A stretch of DNA of 64,000 nt from a candidate division LCP-89 bacterium B3_LCP. Its GTDB lineage: Bacteria; Electryoneota; B3-LCP. The stretch lies in the NCBI GenBank assembly GCA_005223185.1, contig NJBN01000004.1, positions 186,001 through 250,000 of the forward strand. Reading direction: 5' to 3'. The notes beneath the pieces are model-generated. The model was not told the DNA's origin, searched no databases, and saw only the letters and a list, made by a program, of their open reading frames with translations. The translations under genes and the position numbers were made by a program. How positions within the stretch are numbered: the first letter of the stretch is position 1; every line of letters starts with the position of its first letter. This document shows positions 36,808 through 48,482 of the stretch, piece by piece.

Positions 36808-39132
36808 TCATAATTGGAAACTCTTCCTCTTCTTCCGCCAGGGCCAGTTCCACACGAACCTGACATGCTGACACTCCGTGCATTCCAAGCACTTGATACA
36901 TTCCTCACTGTTCGCTTCGGTTTCAACTACCAGGTTAGCAGGGCAGGCTGCCGGGCATTGACCGCAAGATGCACAGGCTGGATCCACCTCTATCGAAACT
37001 AAGGATATACGGTTGAATAAGGCGTAAATCGCTCCAAGTGGGCAAAATACGCGGCAGAAGGGGCGTTTTATAAACAAGAATAACAGGAGAAATATCCCCA
37101 GTATCCACATTTTTATGGTGAACAACGTACCAATGTCTGCCGGATCGATGACTGAAATACCGATTTCCGGATCGATGGGATTCCAGAGAACCCAGGGAAT
37201 CCCGGCGATAAGAGCGCCGCAGGGACAGAGCTTGCTGAACCAGTGCTCGTAGGTGTAGTAAGGGATAATGATGACCACGCCGATTAATACAGCATATTTG
37301 AAGAAATCGAGTATCCTCGGCAGCGGTATGGTCAGTTTTTTGAATCTGTTGAGCAGGTCCTGGATTAAACCCCAGGGACACAGCCATCCGCAGGTGAATC
37401 GCCCCGATATCAGACCGATAATCCCTAAGAAACCTATCAAAAACCAGGGGATACGATGAGTCGCAGAAAAATGCTGCAGCATACCAATAGGGCAGCCCAT
37501 TAGTGCAGTGGGACACGAATGACAGTTCAGTCCCGGTACGCAGGCATTACGCAACGGTCCACCATAGACCATTTTAGTTGATATGACGCCCCAGAAACTG
37601 TTAAAAAGCAGCGTCCCCACACCGATCTGGGTTACCCTCCGCAGGATATGCAGTTTAGATCTCTTGGGCGCCTTGATAAAACTCTCGCCGCAGGTGACAC
37701 ATCTGTCCGCTTCCTTGACTATTGTTTCTTTCAGGGGAGTGAAATTACTTTCGCTCCATGGTTCTTTCAATCTCTGTTCAGCATTTAGACCGGGTACTCT
37801 GCAGCGTTGCGATTCTTCCAGAACATAGAGATTCAGTTGATCGGCACGGATAATCTCGCGGTCGGTATCTCTCACCGGTGATTCGTCACCACTTAACTCA
37901 GCGTGTATAGCTTCAGCGGCTCGCCGTCCTTGATTAAGAGCTTCGGCAACGATTCCTATTCCCTGAACGTCACCACCAGCAAAAATTCCATCATGTTCAG
38001 TAAAACCGTTCTGGTCAATTTCAGCCCAGACCATGGAAACCCTGATATTCTCGAGTCCCTCCCATTCTGGCTGCTGCGATACCGCGACAATAACATTATC
38101 TACTGACAGTGTGAAAGTATCATCAGGGATGGGAACCGGTTTTCTGCGTCCGGAATCGTCCGGCTCTCCAAGCTCCATCCTCTGGCATAATATGCTCGAA
38201 ACTCGCTCGTTTTCAGATTGAACCTCTAACGGCGCGGCGAGATAAACGATTTCGATCCTTTCCTCTTCGGCTGCTTCGATCTCTTCTGCCAGTGCCGGCA
38301 TCTCTTCTCTGGTGCGCCGGTAAACGATTGTGACCTTCGCACCGAGTCTTTTAGCAACCCTCGCCGCATCGATGGCGGTATTGCCTCCACCAATGACTGC
38401 TACGCTGTTTCCAAGATCTATCTTCTCACCGCTGTTTACGCTTTCGAGAAATTCAAGTCCGTTGTAAACCCCGGAAGTTTCTTCGCCGGGACAGTGCAGC
38501 ATCACCGCTTTTTGAGCACCGATCCCTAAGAAGACGGCATCGTGTTCTGTTCTAATTTCATCGAAGGATATGTCTTTGCCTACGGCACAGTTAGTGCGCA
38601 GTTCGACACCTAAGTCCAATATCTTTTCTATTTCGGCGCTAAGCACGTCGCGTGGCAGTCTAAAACTGGGGATGCCGTACCTAAGCATCCCTCCCGGTTC
38701 AGAGAGAGCTTCAAAGATGGTGCTTTTATATCCACGGCGCGCCAGTTGGTAAGCACAGGATAAACCCGCCGGTCCTGAACCTATTATGGCGATTTTCTCA
38801 GATTGGACTCTATCGGTAAGTTTTTGATGAGAAAGTGATTTATCAATCGCCCAATCACCCAGGAATCGTTCAATGACGTTTATGTTAACCGAACTATCCC
38901 TCTCTTGACGGTTGCATTCACCTTCACAGGGGTGCGGACAGACCCTACCGCATACTGCCGGGAAGGGATTGACTTCCGTGATCTTACGCCAGGCTTTCTC
39001 GAAAGCTTCTTCTTCGGTCATCCCCCGGTTTTCTGCCTGGGAGATATCACCGATGAAAGCCCGGATGTCAATCCCCTGCGGACAACTGTTAATGCAGGGG
39101 GCTAAAGGAATATTTTCTTTATTCTGAGACAT
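36808..39132 (-). CDS. Fusion: GltD-like NAD(P)H-FAD oxidoreductase + NapH-like membrane polyferredoxin
   Basis: A 774-residue protein with two halves. Residues 1-460 match the small-subunit glutamate synthase family: N-terminal Fe-S cysteines C13, C17, C61, C65, C69 and C73, a FAD loop GSGPAG (118-123) and a NAD(P)H loop GGGNTA (248-253). Residues about 480-774 are an inner-membrane polyferredoxin with several helices, NCHSCPTALMGCPIG, TCGWLCPWG, FCRVFCPLG and two C-terminal 4Fe-4S motifs (CASCGQCPAACP, CIKCLECTEC). Electrons would pass from cytoplasmic NAD(P)H through FAD and Fe-S clusters into the membrane. The gene follows the small selenopeptide gene by 138 bp across a palindromic repeat. 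A link to periplasmic selenothiols is my inference. Confidence 0.9.
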   Translation of the reverse strand: MSQNKENIPLAPCINSCPQGIDIRAFIGDISQAENRGMTEEEAFEKAWRKITEVNPFPAVCGRVCPHPCEGECNRQERDSSVNINVIERFLGDWAIDKSLSHQKLTDRVQSEKIAIIGSGPAGLSCAYQLARRGYKSTIFEALSEPGGMLRYGIPSFRLPRDVLSAEIEKILDLGVELRTNCAVGKDISFDEIRTEHDAVFLGIGAQKAVMLHCPGEETSGVYNGLEFLESVNSGEKIDLGNSVAVIGGGNTAIDAARVAKRLGAKVTIVYRRTREEMPALAEEIEAAEEERIEIVYLAAPLEVQSENERVSSILCQRMELGEPDDSGRRKPVPIPDDTFTLSVDNVIVAVSQQPEWEGLENIRVSMVWAEIDQNGFTEHDGIFAGGDVQGIGIVAEALNQGRRAAEAIHAELSGDESPVRDTDREIIRADQLNLYVLEESQRCRVPGLNAEQRLKEPWSESNFTPLKETIVKEADRCVTCGESFIKAPKRSKLHILRRVTQIGVGTLLFNSFWGVISTKMVYGGPLRNACVPGLNCHSCPTALMGCPIGMLQHFSATHRIPWFLIGFLGIIGLISGRFTCGWLCPWGLIQDLLNRFKKLTIPLPRILDFFKYAVLIGVVIIIPYYTYEHWFSKLCPCGALIAGIPWVLWNPIDPEIGISVIDPADIGTLFTIKMWILGIFLLLFLFIKRPFCRVFCPLGAIYALFNRISLVSIEVDPACASCGQCPAACPANLVVETEANSEECIKCLECTECQHVRFVWNWPWRKKRKSFQL

Positions 39133-39265: not shown

Positions 39266-39283
39266 AGAGATCATCCGATCCCT
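39266..39283 (-). promoter_or_regulatory. SECIS-like hairpin for the 47-codon selenopeptide
   Basis: In the mRNA, AGGGATC and GATCTCT pair (7 bp, one wobble) around a GGAT loop. The stem starts 11 nt after the in-frame TGA at 39295-39297. The gene's final TGA lies inside the hairpin. A loop starting with G at this distance fits bacterial SECIS rules. Confidence 0.6.
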
Positions 39284-39414
39284 ATGCAGGCCAGTCAAAG
39301 CCCGGAAGCTTCCATACGCATATCCGCCGGGTCACCTAAGATGAATCCCCTGATGAGGGCTAATACTATCACTATGGCGAGCAGAAGGAAGGTTAAGGTC
39401 CTGATCTTGTTCAT
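39271..39414 (-). CDS. Small membrane selenopeptide with C-terminal UxxC motif (47 residues)
   Basis: The frame starts MNKIRTLTFLLL, contains one membrane helix (about 7-21), and meets a TGA at codon 40. Seven codons follow, so the end reads GLULACIGIG, a UxxC motif at the extreme C-terminus. Ending at codon 39 would leave no cysteine at all. A SECIS-like hairpin follows the TGA at the same distance as in the neighbouring thioredoxin genes, and selB is nearby. It lies 43 bp downstream of the TlpA-like gene on the same strand. Topology suggests the redox end faces the periplasm. Such short genes with internal TGA are skipped by standard callers. I know of no family name for it. Confidence 0.65.
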
Positions 39415-39457: not shown

Positions 39458-39976
39458 TTACTCATGAGAAGATGCAGCTTCCTCCTCTTCTATTAACAGG
39501 GTATCCAGGATTTCCTTGATCTTATCTGTTTTTAAAAACAGTTTACTCCCCTGAACGATCCCTTCCTGATCAATTATAACGAGATGTGGCAATTTGGTTA
39601 TTTTATAATCCCGCGCTACGCCGGTTTGGCGGCAGATCAAGGTCGGAAATTCGATTTTGTACCGCTTCGCTTCTGCTGCAGCCTGCTTGGATGGGTTAAT
39701 GGCATTCATCGAAAGGATTTTTACCTGCTCTTCGGGGTAGCTTTCAGCAATTTTCTTAAGATGCGGAATCTCCGCATGACACTGTCGTCAATTGGATTTC
39801 CAGAAGTGCAGGATGACCACCTGCCCCCGGTAATCTGACAGGGTAACTTCGTCTCCTTTGGTCGTCTGCAGAGTGAAATCTGGCGCTTGAACGCCGACGC
39901 CTATGGCTGCATACCCAACTATGGGCATTAGAAAGATTGCTAAGATTATCAGTCTTTGAAAGTTTACATTCGTCAT
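39458..39976 (-). CDS. TlpA/thioredoxin-like selenoprotein (Sec at residue 63, UxxC)
   Basis: A 172-residue exported thioredoxin-fold protein that looks split by a TGA at 39788-39790. The frame is open on both sides without any shift. The N-terminus has a membrane/signal segment (1-24), APDFTLQTTKGDEVTLSDYRG and VVILHFWKSN. The TGA then stands where TlpA proteins have the first active-site cysteine, followed by RQCHAEIP, so the motif is U63-R-Q-C66. The cis-proline region is KLPHLVIID. A perfect 7-bp SECIS-like hairpin begins 10 nt after the TGA. Selenocysteine would make it a strong reductant or isomerase in the envelope. It follows the larger paralogue by 26 bp. Confidence 0.87.
39761..39777 (-). 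promoter_or_regulatory. SECIS-like hairpin of the 172-residue TlpA-like gene
   Basis: The mRNA reads ATGCGGA-GAT-TCCGCAT: a perfect 7-bp stem with a 3-nt loop starting in G. It begins 10 nt after the UGA. The loop and inner stem (CGGAGATTCCG) are identical to the hairpin in the neighbouring selenoprotein gene. Confidence 0.75.
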
Positions 39977-40002
39977 TTTAAACCGTTTTCATGTGCTTAT
40001 CA

Positions 40003-40878
40003 TTAATCGGGTGGATTTTCAAGCAGTTCATCTATTTTCGCTAGAACCTCATCCATTTCCAGGCTGAATTCGGGATCGGAATCAGTGCCATCGAACCGTA
40101 ACTGGATAACCCCCGACTGATCGATCAGGAATATCGATGGTAGATTAGTTAAATTCGACTCATAAAGATCGAAGGTATCACCGGTCGTGTCAGAAAGCAT
40201 GGGGAAGGTTATGGCGACGCTCTTGATCATGGTGGTCAGAGGCGCATACCACTCCAGCCATCCGGTCGGAGCGTTGGGATGCAGAACGCTTAGAACTGCC
40301 ACACTATCCGTATCGAATATCTCGTGAATTTCTGTCTGGAAATACGGAATCTCCGTACCAATGCAGAAAGATCATCCGTATTCGAAGAAATATGCCAACA
40401 CGATTTTGTCATCGCCGGTTAATACCGACAAAGTAACTAAATTATCGTCCAGGTCGTACAGGGCGATCTCAGGTGCCAGGAATCCCTCGTATGGTGCAAC
40501 CGGCAGGTCGCCCTCCAGGTCGAACTGAGTCTGGGTAGTCTGACCTTCCTGTACAGTAACGTACTGAGGTGCGCTGAAATATTCGATTGTGTCGCCAGGA
40601 TTGGGATAGATGATGGATCCCACTTCCAGCAGATGAGTACCGATTACTGTGGTCAATGTATGCGGATTGGGAAATGTGCCTAAAAAACCGTCATCGAGAG
40701 TTACGTGAACGCTATCTGCGGGACTGCTGTCCGGCATCACTCCATTTACCTGAACAGAACCCACCTTATCCACAATTGTTACGGGTAAGTTGCCGCATCC
40801 CCAGATCAAAAAGACGGTAATGATCAAAGCACAAACGATGAGCATTCCGGAATGACTATGTGTTTGATCCGCTCTCAT
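40003..40878 (-). CDS. Lipoprotein with thioredoxin-like domain, selenoprotein (Sec at residue 169, UxxC)
   Basis: A 291-residue lipoprotein interrupted by a TGA at 40372-40374 with the frame intact on both sides. A signal peptide ends in IWGC (lipidated C28). Residues about 38-120 form a small beta domain resembling PEGA. The thioredoxin-like domain starts near 128 (GFLAPEIALYDLDDN). Its active site reads AYFFEYG then TGA, then SFCIGTEIP, giving U169-S-F-C172. The cis-proline region is NLPSIFLID. A SECIS-like hairpin starts 14 nt after the TGA. Its start overlaps the barrel gene by 4 bp. Anchoring by lipid suggests it acts on the periplasmic face of a membrane, probably the outer one. Confidence 0.87.
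40343..40357 (-). promoter_or_regulatory. SECIS-like hairpin of the 291-residue lipoprotein gene
   Basis: The mRNA reads TACGGA-GAT-TCCGTA: a perfect 6-bp stem, extendable by wobble pairs, with a GAT loop. It begins 14 nt after the UGA. The inner part is identical to the hairpin at 39761-39777. Confidence 0.72.
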
Positions 40879-41879
40879 AATATGTGCTCCAATGCCAGCA
40901 GATAGGTGTTCATTTCGACGTCCTGATCACTCCAGTAATAGCGGTATTTAACCGATACGATGGTCTCGGCAAATAGGTGATGACTTAAGATACCGGATAT
41001 GGAAAAGCTGGTGAAATGGTCTCCCTTGATTGTCTCAAGGGCTGCTTCATCAGTAGGTTTTCCGTAATAGTAGCGTGCCCGCGTTTTGAAAATCGTTGCC
41101 CAGGATAGATATTGAGCAATTTCCAGGGAGGGGGAATGAGAAGTCAATCCGGCTGTATCCCAGTGTTCTCTCCATTCCAGATGTACGGCCGTCTGCGTTG
41201 GCAGCCACTGTGACAGCCAGAAAGTAAGCGTATTGGATACGAAATCGGCTTTTTCACCTGAAGCAAAGAACCAATCATGCCGAACCTGAAACGCGGTAGA
41301 GCGTGAAAGAGTCTGGCGCAGTTTTAATTGGAAGGAATGAGCATCGCTCTTCTCAAGTCCGACGCTGTCGATTTCATTGGTGTAATATGCGTATGATGCT
41401 GATGCCAGTACGAAACCCGCCCAGTCGTATCTACCGCCCAATTGGACCATCTTTCCCAGGAAGTTACCGGTGCCTCTGGTAAACTGACCGCTGATGTGCA
41501 CATCCGCGGAAGCGGAGACGTTACGTTGGTACTTGAGATTAAAGAGATCCTGAAAATTATTCTCAGACAGGTCAGAATATTGGTATTTCAACTGTATTTC
41601 ATCGTTGAAACCGATACCCTGGGTCACTCGAGCTAAACTCCTGTTTTCAGGAAAATCAACGATGTAAGGAAGCGGCTGGGTATATTGCTGATTGGGGTAT
41701 TCGAAGAGAATGGGATTGGGATAGGAGTATTTTAGATAGTCAGTGTACTGGTACTCTAATTTCACCTGAGTGAAGTTACCGATACTCAGAGGGCCGGCAA
41801 AGAGCGATGCGGGAATCAGCGTTATTGCACTGATTAAGAGAATTATTCTATTACAAGGGTTCATTTTATTCTGCATCAA
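40875..41879 (-). CDS. Outer-membrane beta-barrel protein
   Basis: A 334-residue exported protein with a signal peptide (1-28, ending LFAGP). The mature part alternates polar and aromatic residues in strands (VKLEYQYTDYLKYSY, IQLKYQYSDLSE, VSVKYRYYW) and ends with a strand finishing in a hydrophobic residue, as barrels do. It recalls the DUF3570-type barrels that travel with small DUF4266 lipoproteins and thioredoxins in other bacteria. That resemblance is from layout and is not a confirmed match. It sits between the small lipoprotein and the Sec lipoprotein and overlaps the latter by 4 bp. Confidence 0.75.
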   Translation of the reverse strand: MMQNKMNPCNRIILLISAITLIPASLFAGPLSIGNFTQVKLEYQYTDYLKYSYPNPILFEYPNQQYTQPLPYIVDFPENRSLARVTQGIGFNDEIQLKYQYSDLSENNFQDLFNLKYQRNVSASADVHISGQFTRGTGNFLGKMVQLGGRYDWAGFVLASASYAYYTNEIDSVGLEKSDAHSFQLKLRQTLSRSTAFQVRHDWFFASGEKADFVSNTLTFWLSQWLPTQTAVHLEWREHWDTAGLTSHSPSLEIAQYLSWATIFKTRARYYYGKPTDEAALETIKGDHFTSFSISGILSHHLFAETIVSVKYRYYWSDQDVEMNTYLLALEHIL

Positions 41880-41979: not shown

Positions 41980-41988
41980 AAAACTTCA

Positions 41989-42195
41989 TCAAGTAGGGCA
42001 TTCACCGGCTGAACCGGAATAACCGCCGTCTTCAACTTTACACAGGTCACTGTCCTGGGCGTCATCGGCATACATCATGGGATCGCTGACTGGCTGATCC
42101 AACATGTAAACCATGTTGAAAACACAGCCAGAGAACGCAACCATCAGGCAGAAAGAAAGGAAAATTATCACAAATGTGTGGATTAGACGCCGCAC
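41989..42195 (-). CDS. Small lipoprotein (DUF4266-like), possible C-terminal selenocysteine
   Basis: A 68-residue lipoprotein with a GTG start. The signal ends in a lipobox (AFSGC, C24). The end reads GGYSGSAGECPT and then TGA TGA. In the DUF4266-like lipoproteins that it resembles, the tail is a glycine-rich GGGCGCN with paired cysteines. Reading the first TGA as selenocysteine would give CPTU, a CxxU pair, with the second TGA as stop (69 residues). Reading both would extend it to 83 residues, ending at 41944. The hairpin at 41963 supports recoding, but ordinary termination is still possible. It is the first gene after the promoter at 42231-42259. Confidence 0.6.
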   Translation of the reverse strand: MRRLIHTFVIIFLSFCLMVAFSGCVFNMVYMLDQPVSDPMMYADDAQDSDLCKVEDGGYSGSAGECPT

Positions 42196-46565: not shown

Positions 46566-48482
46566 TCAAGATTGGTTCTTCAATTGGCGCACTTCACCCA
46601 CTCGCACAGTGAAACCTATCTGATCGAAGTAATTCAGAATCGGGGTGGTGAATTTACGTGTGGAATTTAGCGCTTCACGTGCTTCAAAAAAAGCGATTTC
46701 ATCTTTATCTTTAAAAAGACCTGCCACGATATCTTTTGCCTCATCGATGCGTTGGGAGTGAAAAATCAGAGCGCGGCCTATCTTGATGCTTAATTCCTTC
46801 AGGTCGCCCTTATCAGTCAGCCCTTGAATTACACGGCGGACCTGCTCAGCAGGCGCGTCCAACTGTTCGGTTAGTTCATCGAATTCGGGAGTGACGAAAG
46901 CAGCTTCCCAGTATATTTTTAGGATTTTTTCTGCTAATAATTCCTGCTGTTTATTGAACTTGATCTTGTGTCCCTTCCGCAGAACGTGCAGACCCTTTAA
47001 TTCTATATCACCCTCTTCCACATGGTGATCGAGAAAAGCGTCGTACAGTCCTGTATCCACCTTACCGAACAGCTTGCCTGCCAGTTCGGAACGTTTCAAC
47101 CCTAAGCGAAATGGGTTGGCATGGTGGAATTCATCCAGCGTCTTCAGCATCAATTTTCTGGAGTCTTCTAAGACTTCATGATGGATAACCCAATACGTCT
47201 GAGGCGTTTTGAATTGAACTATCTTACCCTGCTCGATCAATTTCTCAAAGAGACCGGATACTTCATCTTCTGGTCGGGAAATATCGCGGGCGACAGAAGC
47301 GATGGTCAGAGGAACGAAGCCGCTGCGTCTGATATGTTGTTCGGTTAAGTCACCGGCGCCGCCTTTGTCCAGAGCTTCTAAAACGCGGATCTCATCATCC
47401 GGGAGGTACTTCAATTTTTCTGGATGGACTTCCAATATCTGCCCGCCGCCGATGGTTCTGCCAGGTGAGTAATCCCTTATGACGAATCGGTCGCCGATTT
47501 CGCAGACGGTAGGGGATTCTAAGCGCAATTGCATGTAGCCGGTTTCGCCCGGAAGAATGGGTTTCTTCTCTAAAGGCACCGCTCTGGCTAAGTACTCGGC
47601 TGTACCTAAATGGAGACGAATTCTAGCGCGGTTGGCAAGGGGCTTTGAAGCAAAAAGGAGGTGATTATAGGACACGTTCAGCATGTAGGTTGATTTGAAA
47701 TATCCAGTTTGTGCTAGCAGATCACCGCGCATGATCTGGGATGTTTCCACCCCCTGTAGATTGATGGCAGCACGTTCACCGATTCTGGTTTTGGGGACTT
47801 CAGCGTTATGAACCTGTATCCGCTTAATGCGGACGGTAATTCCAGCAGGCTGCAGTTCAGCGCGATCGCCGGGTTTAAGTTCTCCGCCCAAAACGGTTCC
47901 AGCGATGACGGTCCCCGAACCTTTTATGCTGAAAACGCGGTCAACGTACATGCGGAAAACACCACGATCGGGTCTTGGGGGAATCTCTTCTGCTAACTTT
48001 AAAATTGCCTGTTTTATCTCTTCGATGCCCTTACCGCTGATGCTATCAACTCGGAAAATTGGCGCATCTTCCAGGAAAGATCCCGTTAACCTTTGCTTGA
48101 TATCATCCTCGACCAGGTCAACCCATTCAGGGTCCACCGTATCGATCTTCGTCAACGCTACCATGCCGCGTTCGACGTTCATCAGTTTCAAGATTTCAAA
48201 GTGCTCTTCCGACTGCGGCATGAAACCGTCATCGGCGGCAACGATGAAAACGACTGCATCGACCGTCACCACTCCAGACAGCATGTTTTTGATGAATTTT
48301 TCATGCCCCGGAACGTCTATGAAAGTGATATCGTCACCTAAGAAAGCAAATCCCAGGTCAATGGTCATTTCCCTCTCTTTTTCTTCCTGCAGACGATCAG
48401 GGTCTGTGCCGGTTAGCGCTCTGACTAATGCGGATTTCCCATGATCGACATGCCCCGCAGTGCCGATGACAACATGCTGCAT
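46566..48482 (-). CDS. selB: SelB, selenocysteine-specific translation elongation factor
   Basis: It delivers selenocysteinyl-tRNA to in-frame UGA codons that carry a SECIS hairpin. It has 638 residues. The N-terminal GTPase has G1 GHVDHGKS, EREMTIDLGFA, DVPGHE and ALTKID. Beta-barrel domains follow (about 175-365). The C-terminal third (about 380-638) consists of the winged-helix repeats that bind the SECIS RNA and distinguish SelB from EF-Tu. Its presence shows that this organism inserts selenocysteine, which supports the UGA-containing genes 4-9 kb away on the same strand. selA, selC and selD are not in the window. Confidence 0.95.
   Translation of the reverse strand: MQHVVIGTAGHVDHGKSALVRALTGTDPDRLQEEKEREMTIDLGFAFLGDDITFIDVPGHEKFIKNMLSGVVTVDAVVFIVAADDGFMPQSEEHFEILKLMNVERGMVALTKIDTVDPEWVDLVEDDIKQRLTGSFLEDAPIFRVDSISGKGIEEIKQAILKLAEEIPPRPDRGVFRMYVDRVFSIKGSGTVIAGTVLGGELKPGDRAELQPAGITVRIKRIQVHNAEVPKTRIGERAAINLQGVETSQIMRGDLLAQTGYFKSTYMLNVSYNHLLFASKPLANRARIRLHLGTAEYLARAVPLEKKPILPGETGYMQLRLESPTVCEIGDRFVIRDYSPGRTIGGGQILEVHPEKLKYLPDDEIRVLEALDKGGAGDLTEQHIRRSGFVPLTIASVARDISRPEDEVSGLFEKLIEQGKIVQFKTPQTYWVIHHEVLEDSRKLMLKTLDEFHHANPFRLGLKRSELAGKLFGKVDTGLYDAFLDHHVEEGDIELKGLHVLRKGHKIKFNKQQELLAEKILKIYWEAAFVTPEFDELTEQLDAPAEQVRRVIQGLTDKGDLKELSIKIGRALIFHSQRIDEAKDIVAGLFKDKDEIAFFEAREALNSTRKFTTPILNYFDQIGFTVRVGEVRQLKNQS

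Follow-up and report, generated by a model that had tools for sequence, protein, structure and literature searches.

The window considered here is the whole stretch of 64,000 nucleotides that was analysed, from the candidate division LCP-89 bacterium B3_LCP (contig NJBN01000004.1, positions 186,001 to 250,000). On its minus strand, a 47-residue peptide, MNKIRTLTFLLLAIVIVLALIRGFILGDPADMRMEASGL-U-LACIGIG, lies between a TlpA-like gene with a UxxC motif upstream and a GltD/NapH fusion gene downstream, all on one strand (Table 1). The peptide frame opens with ATG at 39414-39412, carries LACIGIG between two TGAs and is terminated by the second of these, codon 48 (39273-39271). Its sole cysteine, C43, lies 3' of the first TGA. 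The predicted membrane segment is strongly hydrophobic, with two basic residues before it and a net acidic stretch after it. Rereading of the sequence bore out every detail of the initial annotation at this level: the start codon, the single helix, the TGA at codon 40, LACIGIG and the second TGA, the placement of the only thiol after the first TGA, the 7-bp hairpin with its GGAT loop at the usual spacing, and the position of the gene between a selenoprotein and an Fe-S fusion.

Table 1. Features of the selenopeptide locus and its surroundings, in window coordinates.
Feature	Position	Strand	Remarks
Fusion of GltD-like NAD(P)H/FAD oxidoreductase and NapH-like membrane polyferredoxin	36808..39132	-	presumed electron donor
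SECIS-like hairpin, AGGGATC-GGAT-GATCTCT	39266..39283	-	7 bp; GGAT loop 18 nt after the Sec TGA
Selenopeptide gene	39271..39414	-	47 codons; one predicted TM helix at about residues 9-27; Sec at codon 40 in U-L-A-C
Sec codon UGA (codon 40)	39295..39297	-	TGA in 14/14 phylum homologues; Cys codon TGC/TGT in 20 elsewhere
TlpA/ResA-like periplasmic thioredoxin, selenoprotein	39458..39979	-	U-R-Q-C; presumed acceptor
Lipoprotein redoxin (AhpC/TSA fold), selenoprotein	40003..40878	-	U-S-F-C
Predicted outer-membrane beta-barrel	40875..41879	-	no family match above cut-off
Small lipoprotein ending C-P-T-U	41986..42195	-	Sec as last residue, immediate stop (TGA TGA)
SelB of the second (type B) Sec system	46566..48482	-	clade B

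The hairpin starts 11 nt past the first TGA, and the terminating UGA falls inside it, where the loop passes into the 3' arm: it takes up the final loop base and the opening bases of that arm. By itself this hairpin is unremarkable. Of the 2,634 TGA triplets in the window, 171 have an in-range hairpin of at least 7 bp, and shuffled sequences fold as well as the 57-nt stretch (z 0.10). An Rfam scan of the window gave no match. The folding energy is -7.0 kcal/mol for the isolated 18-nt hairpin and -10.6 kcal/mol for the 57-nt stretch, where the bSECIS criterion is -7.5 kcal/mol or lower. The selenopeptide is accepted as real because of its conservation across homologues, and not because of the lone hairpin.

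A search with the single sequence found the peptide in all six genomes of the class, each time with an internal TGA. When a profile built from these six sequences was run on the 39 genomes of the phylum, 13 of them proved to carry the peptide and G029 a divergent copy, none lacking the TGA (E-values of the whole-genome searches are per genome). The TGA is at the same codon in all 14 homologues. At codons +1 (L), +3 (C), +4 (I) and +7 (G) after it, pairwise comparison gives 112 synonymous differences and no non-synonymous one; therefore, translation passes the first TGA and the residues beyond it are under selection at the protein level. Sequence 3' of the second TGA is not conserved among the phylum homologues beyond the needs of the hairpin, so this second TGA is the stop. 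Its reading as a further Sec codon is ruled out, as nothing after it is conserved and seven Cys-containing homologues also end in TGA there. In a scan of genome contigs one near relative was recovered, no homologue was found in the viral contigs and plasmids searched, and a PDB search yielded nothing informative.

Outside the phylum, a search of 386 genomes detected the peptide in 23 genomes from 15 other families (24 genes). A cysteine codon takes the place of the Sec codon in 20 of these genes and TGA is kept in four (G145, G172, G323 and one of the two G346 copies). The Cys forms align a cysteine at the Sec column and end in tails such as LCLSCIGIG, ICLECIGIG and VCLECIGVG, with CLxCIGxG as the general pattern. 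The initial annotation had named homologues with C/UxxC endings as the way to check the peptide, and tails of the ULxCIGxG and CLxCIGxG types are indeed found in many genomes. In G346 a Cys form and a Sec form occur together (L163, L169), each adjoining its own NapH-like gene. In two further loci, L170 (G276) and L178 (G138), a CTACVGI-type motif is embedded in a long membrane-protein ORF, of 851 and 708 codons respectively, that immediately precedes a NapH-like gene; this may be a natural fusion of the peptide.

The hairpin follows the Sec/Cys distribution. With the phylum rows and three outside Sec homologues aligned, 99% of pairs are kept and six double-change cells occur at two pairs, which was equalled by none of 500 shuffles; on the 14 in-phylum rows alone, the covariation was equalled by 18 of 500. 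Seventeen of the 18 Sec forms share the register of the hairpin and have the stop UGA inside it; the exception is the Sec form of G346 (G346b), which has a TAG stop and no hairpin in the shared register; in this form a hairpin is present farther downstream. None of the Cys forms has a fully pairing hairpin in that register. Judged across these alignments, the pattern at codon 40 is far beyond chance, and the 47-residue peptide is almost certainly a real selenoprotein with UGA-40 read as Sec.

The initial annotation called the gene unannotated. This holds in that no family model names the peptide; its kin, however, are known, as it is a relative of NCBIfam family NF040920 (CD1871A family CXXC motif-containing protein). 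The curated cut-off of that model is 32 bits. Several Cys homologues exceed it (47.1, 50.5, 43.3, 41.9 and 32.1 bits), as does G346b when its Sec is read as Cys (32.8 bits), and the divergent G029 copy reaches 28.2 bits. The window protein read with Cys scores 7.8 bits, with a match that runs to the last of the 38 profile positions, where the CXXC motif lies. It therefore belongs to a Sec-containing branch related to NF040920 and is no formal member of that family. Changing C to A in silico at either column costs the G029 copy about 6.5-7 bits against the model; therefore, the CXXC of NF040920 sits at the U and C columns of the selenopeptide. No description of Sec in the CD1871A family was found in the literature, and a 2026 catalogue that covers 119 families of prokaryotic selenoproteins (PMC13188914) has no entry for the peptide. 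From these profile matches, we regard the selenopeptide as a new, Sec-containing form of a CXXC family that is known but not characterised.

Gene order is kept in the phylum: CPT-U lipoprotein, barrel-like protein, lipoprotein redoxin, TlpA/ResA-like protein, peptide and NapH-like polyferredoxin. This unusual operon thus holds four selenoproteins, namely the peptide, the TlpA-like protein and lipoprotein redoxin (both UxxC), and the CPT-U lipoprotein. The last of these is found in 14 genomes, every homologue read to its end having CPT-TGA-stop, and has no match above cut-off in Pfam or NCBIfam; it looks like a further unnamed selenoprotein. A GG-loop hairpin follows the stop of its gene. The UxxC TlpA-like gene adjoins the peptide in nearly all phylum loci, and a TlpA-like gene is within 1.5 kb in 8 of the 24 loci outside the phylum. 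A Cys-rich secreted protein with a YHS domain is encoded directly after the polyferredoxin in the window (36640-35996, minus strand) and, among the compared loci, otherwise only in G004.

The NapH-like gene is the more constant neighbour. In every readable phylum locus it lies downstream of the peptide, with an opposite-strand ORF between the two in G008; in G005 the contig ends at this point. Of the 24 outside loci, 19 have it no more than 350 nt downstream and the other five have no NapH match. The GltD-like half is fused to it in most phylum genomes and is absent at the peptide locus of G001, G004, G013 and G029. The NapH-like protein carries a C-x5-C-x2-C-x6-CP motif in its predicted first outside loop. 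Hydropathy and charge (the positive-inside rule) suggest an N-in/C-out orientation of the peptide in the inner membrane, which would place UxxC, within a periplasmic U-L-x-C-I-G-x-G tail, on the same side as this four-Cys loop. The shared side is inferred in this way because the AlphaFold model of an in-frame read-through chain of peptide and NapH from G004 is poor (pLDDT 58.5, uninformative past the TM helix). In five loci (L068 and L070-L073, from G006 and G009-G012), SelA lies directly downstream of the polyferredoxin, and in G006, G010 and G012 tRNA-Sec is on the shared contig.

Taken together, these neighbours suggest an electron relay from the NapH-like partner via the selenopeptide to the TlpA-like protein, which appears moderately probable. 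SelB would decode UGA-40 by way of the hairpin just 3' of it, with the second UGA, inside the hairpin, terminating translation. Electrons from NAD(P)H via the GltD-like half, or from a cytosolic donor in the NapH-only forms, would cross the membrane through the NapH-like 4Fe-4S centres to the outside four-Cys loop, which would reduce a selenenylsulphide between Sec40 and Cys43 of the peptide. The peptide would then pass them to the UxxC TlpA-like protein, from which the lipoprotein redoxin and CPTU lipoprotein would receive them. The initial annotation had proposed a redox shuttle between the polyferredoxin and periplasmic thioredoxins. The selenopeptide itself stands; the shuttle is suggested indirectly by the NapH neighbour, the UxxC or CxxC TlpA-like neighbours and the N-in/C-out topology. 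The best overall explanation is a Sec-containing relative of the CD1871A family acting in an Fe-S-driven relay, with a probability of roughly 0.6.

The main rival is a metal-ligand or subunit role, in which the selenopeptide is real and does not shuttle electrons: as a subunit of a NapH complex, its Sec or Cys would ligate or gate a metal or Fe-S centre, and the thioredoxins would not be direct partners. This would agree with the NapH neighbour being more constant than TlpA (19 versus 8 of the 24 outside loci), and Sec is known as a metal ligand in hydrogenases and formate dehydrogenase (PMC13188914). However, the free exchange of U and C in UxxC and the adjoining UxxC thioredoxins fit thiol/selenol redox chemistry at least equally well, and this role is considered unlikely. 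Reversal of the relay is improbable. In that case the peptide would oxidise periplasmic thiols and pass electrons inward to the Fe-S protein, in the manner of DsbB or VKOR; Fe-S chains can run both ways, and no NAD(P)H module is obvious in the NapH-only forms. Outward reduction is nevertheless favoured by the fusion to an NAD(P)H/FAD half that most genomes show and by the low potential of 4Fe-4S centres. Moreover, the neighbour matches the TlpA/ResA family, and TlpA/ResA relatives mostly act as reductants.

The Sec machinery bears on how UGA-40 is decoded. The six genomes of the window's family each have two SelA genes and two tRNA-Sec that pass the Rfam cut-off, together with a pair of divergent SelBs, the second of which is present in G002 as fragments only. 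The two tRNA-Sec are 63% identical, and both have a UCA anticodon, G73 and a long variable arm. Both SelA/SelB/tRNA-Sec sets are present in G000, the genome of the window (the SelB of the window, plus C16, C13, C18, C6 and C7). Single genomes with additional copies of tRNA-Sec have been described (PMC5330540), as has a second SelB with a tRNA-Cys in some Deltaproteobacteria (PMC7609411); no report of two complete Sec sets was found in the accessible literature. The extra SelB and extra tRNA-Sec-like tRNA of the genome invite the reading that a SelB*/selC*-type tRNA-Cys, as in Desulfobacterales, inserts Cys at UGA-40, since SelB*/selC* systems carry an extra selB (PMC7609411). However, the features and Rfam tRNA-Sec scores of both tRNAs and the two SelA genes make this very improbable. 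That UGA-40 is an ordinary stop, giving a thiol-free peptide of 39 residues with the rest a coincidence, is highly improbable: such a hairpin alone is common by chance, but the conserved UGA, the exclusively synonymous change downstream, the covariation and the Cys homologues aligned at the column all speak against it.

The SelB copies fall into two clades, and clade B is found in 15 genomes of the phylum. The CPTU lipoprotein is encoded in 14 of these 15 and in none of the 24 others, and the peptide in 13 of the 15 and in one of the 24, counts that are not independent because the genomes are related. In several genomes the clade B SelB, SelA or tRNA-Sec is on the contig of the operon. By gene content, the distribution of clade B SelB in the phylum follows that of the envelope selenoprotein operon. 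A wider scheme can be put forward tentatively, in which the Fe-S-driven relay is part of a trans-envelope selenol relay running from NAD(P)H through Fe-S centres and the peptide to three further selenoproteins toward the outer membrane. The second SelA/SelB/tRNA-Sec set would be dedicated to this pathway and would have been inherited together with the operon, alongside the ordinary Sec system.

The selenopeptide adds a selenoprotein family to those catalogued. A widespread family of CXXC micropeptides, for which no characterisation was found, gains a likely partner, the NapH-type Fe-S protein, and a redox-active residue, and the alternation of Sec and Cys makes its function directly testable. 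The arrangement suggests a way of bringing reducing power out of the cytoplasm other than DsbD/CcdA. The link between a four-selenoprotein operon and a second complete Sec set also raises the question of whether bacteria keep pathway-specific Sec systems.

Among known systems, the CD1871A family (NF040920) shares with the selenopeptide a short one-helix membrane peptide and a CxxCIGxG end, and differs in having Cys first where the window protein has Sec. TsoA (NF045695), a LULAXC motif selenoprotein of a three-selenoprotein operon (Haft & Tolstoy 2025, as cited in PMC13188914), resembles it in the motif string LULAxC and in belonging to a multi-selenoprotein operon. However, the TsoA model has 144 positions against 47 residues, and the identification by motif is rejected, as NF045695 matches neither the window protein nor the locus in the six class genomes; the remaining Tso models do not match the operon proteins. 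The C-terminal half of the partner resembles the NapH/MauN family (TIGR02163, E 2.4e-17, with Fer4_5 domains) at 63 of 213 bits, below the family cut-off, and differs from it in the outside C-x5-C-x2-C-x6-CP loop and, often, in the GltD-like fusion.

Every one of the 39 phylum genomes encodes a DsbD-type transporter, which leaves no obvious need for a second reductive route. For the same reason the route through the peptide would be an additional one, and the idea that the module replaces DsbD is unsupported. No DsbD_TM domain was matched in the peptide or the polyferredoxin. The DsbD/CcdA transporters (PF02683) supply TlpA-like proteins with reducing power from across the inner membrane, and the proposed module would work in a similar manner. 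However, the sequences are unrelated, and the module would consist of an Fe-S protein and a one-helix UxxC peptide.
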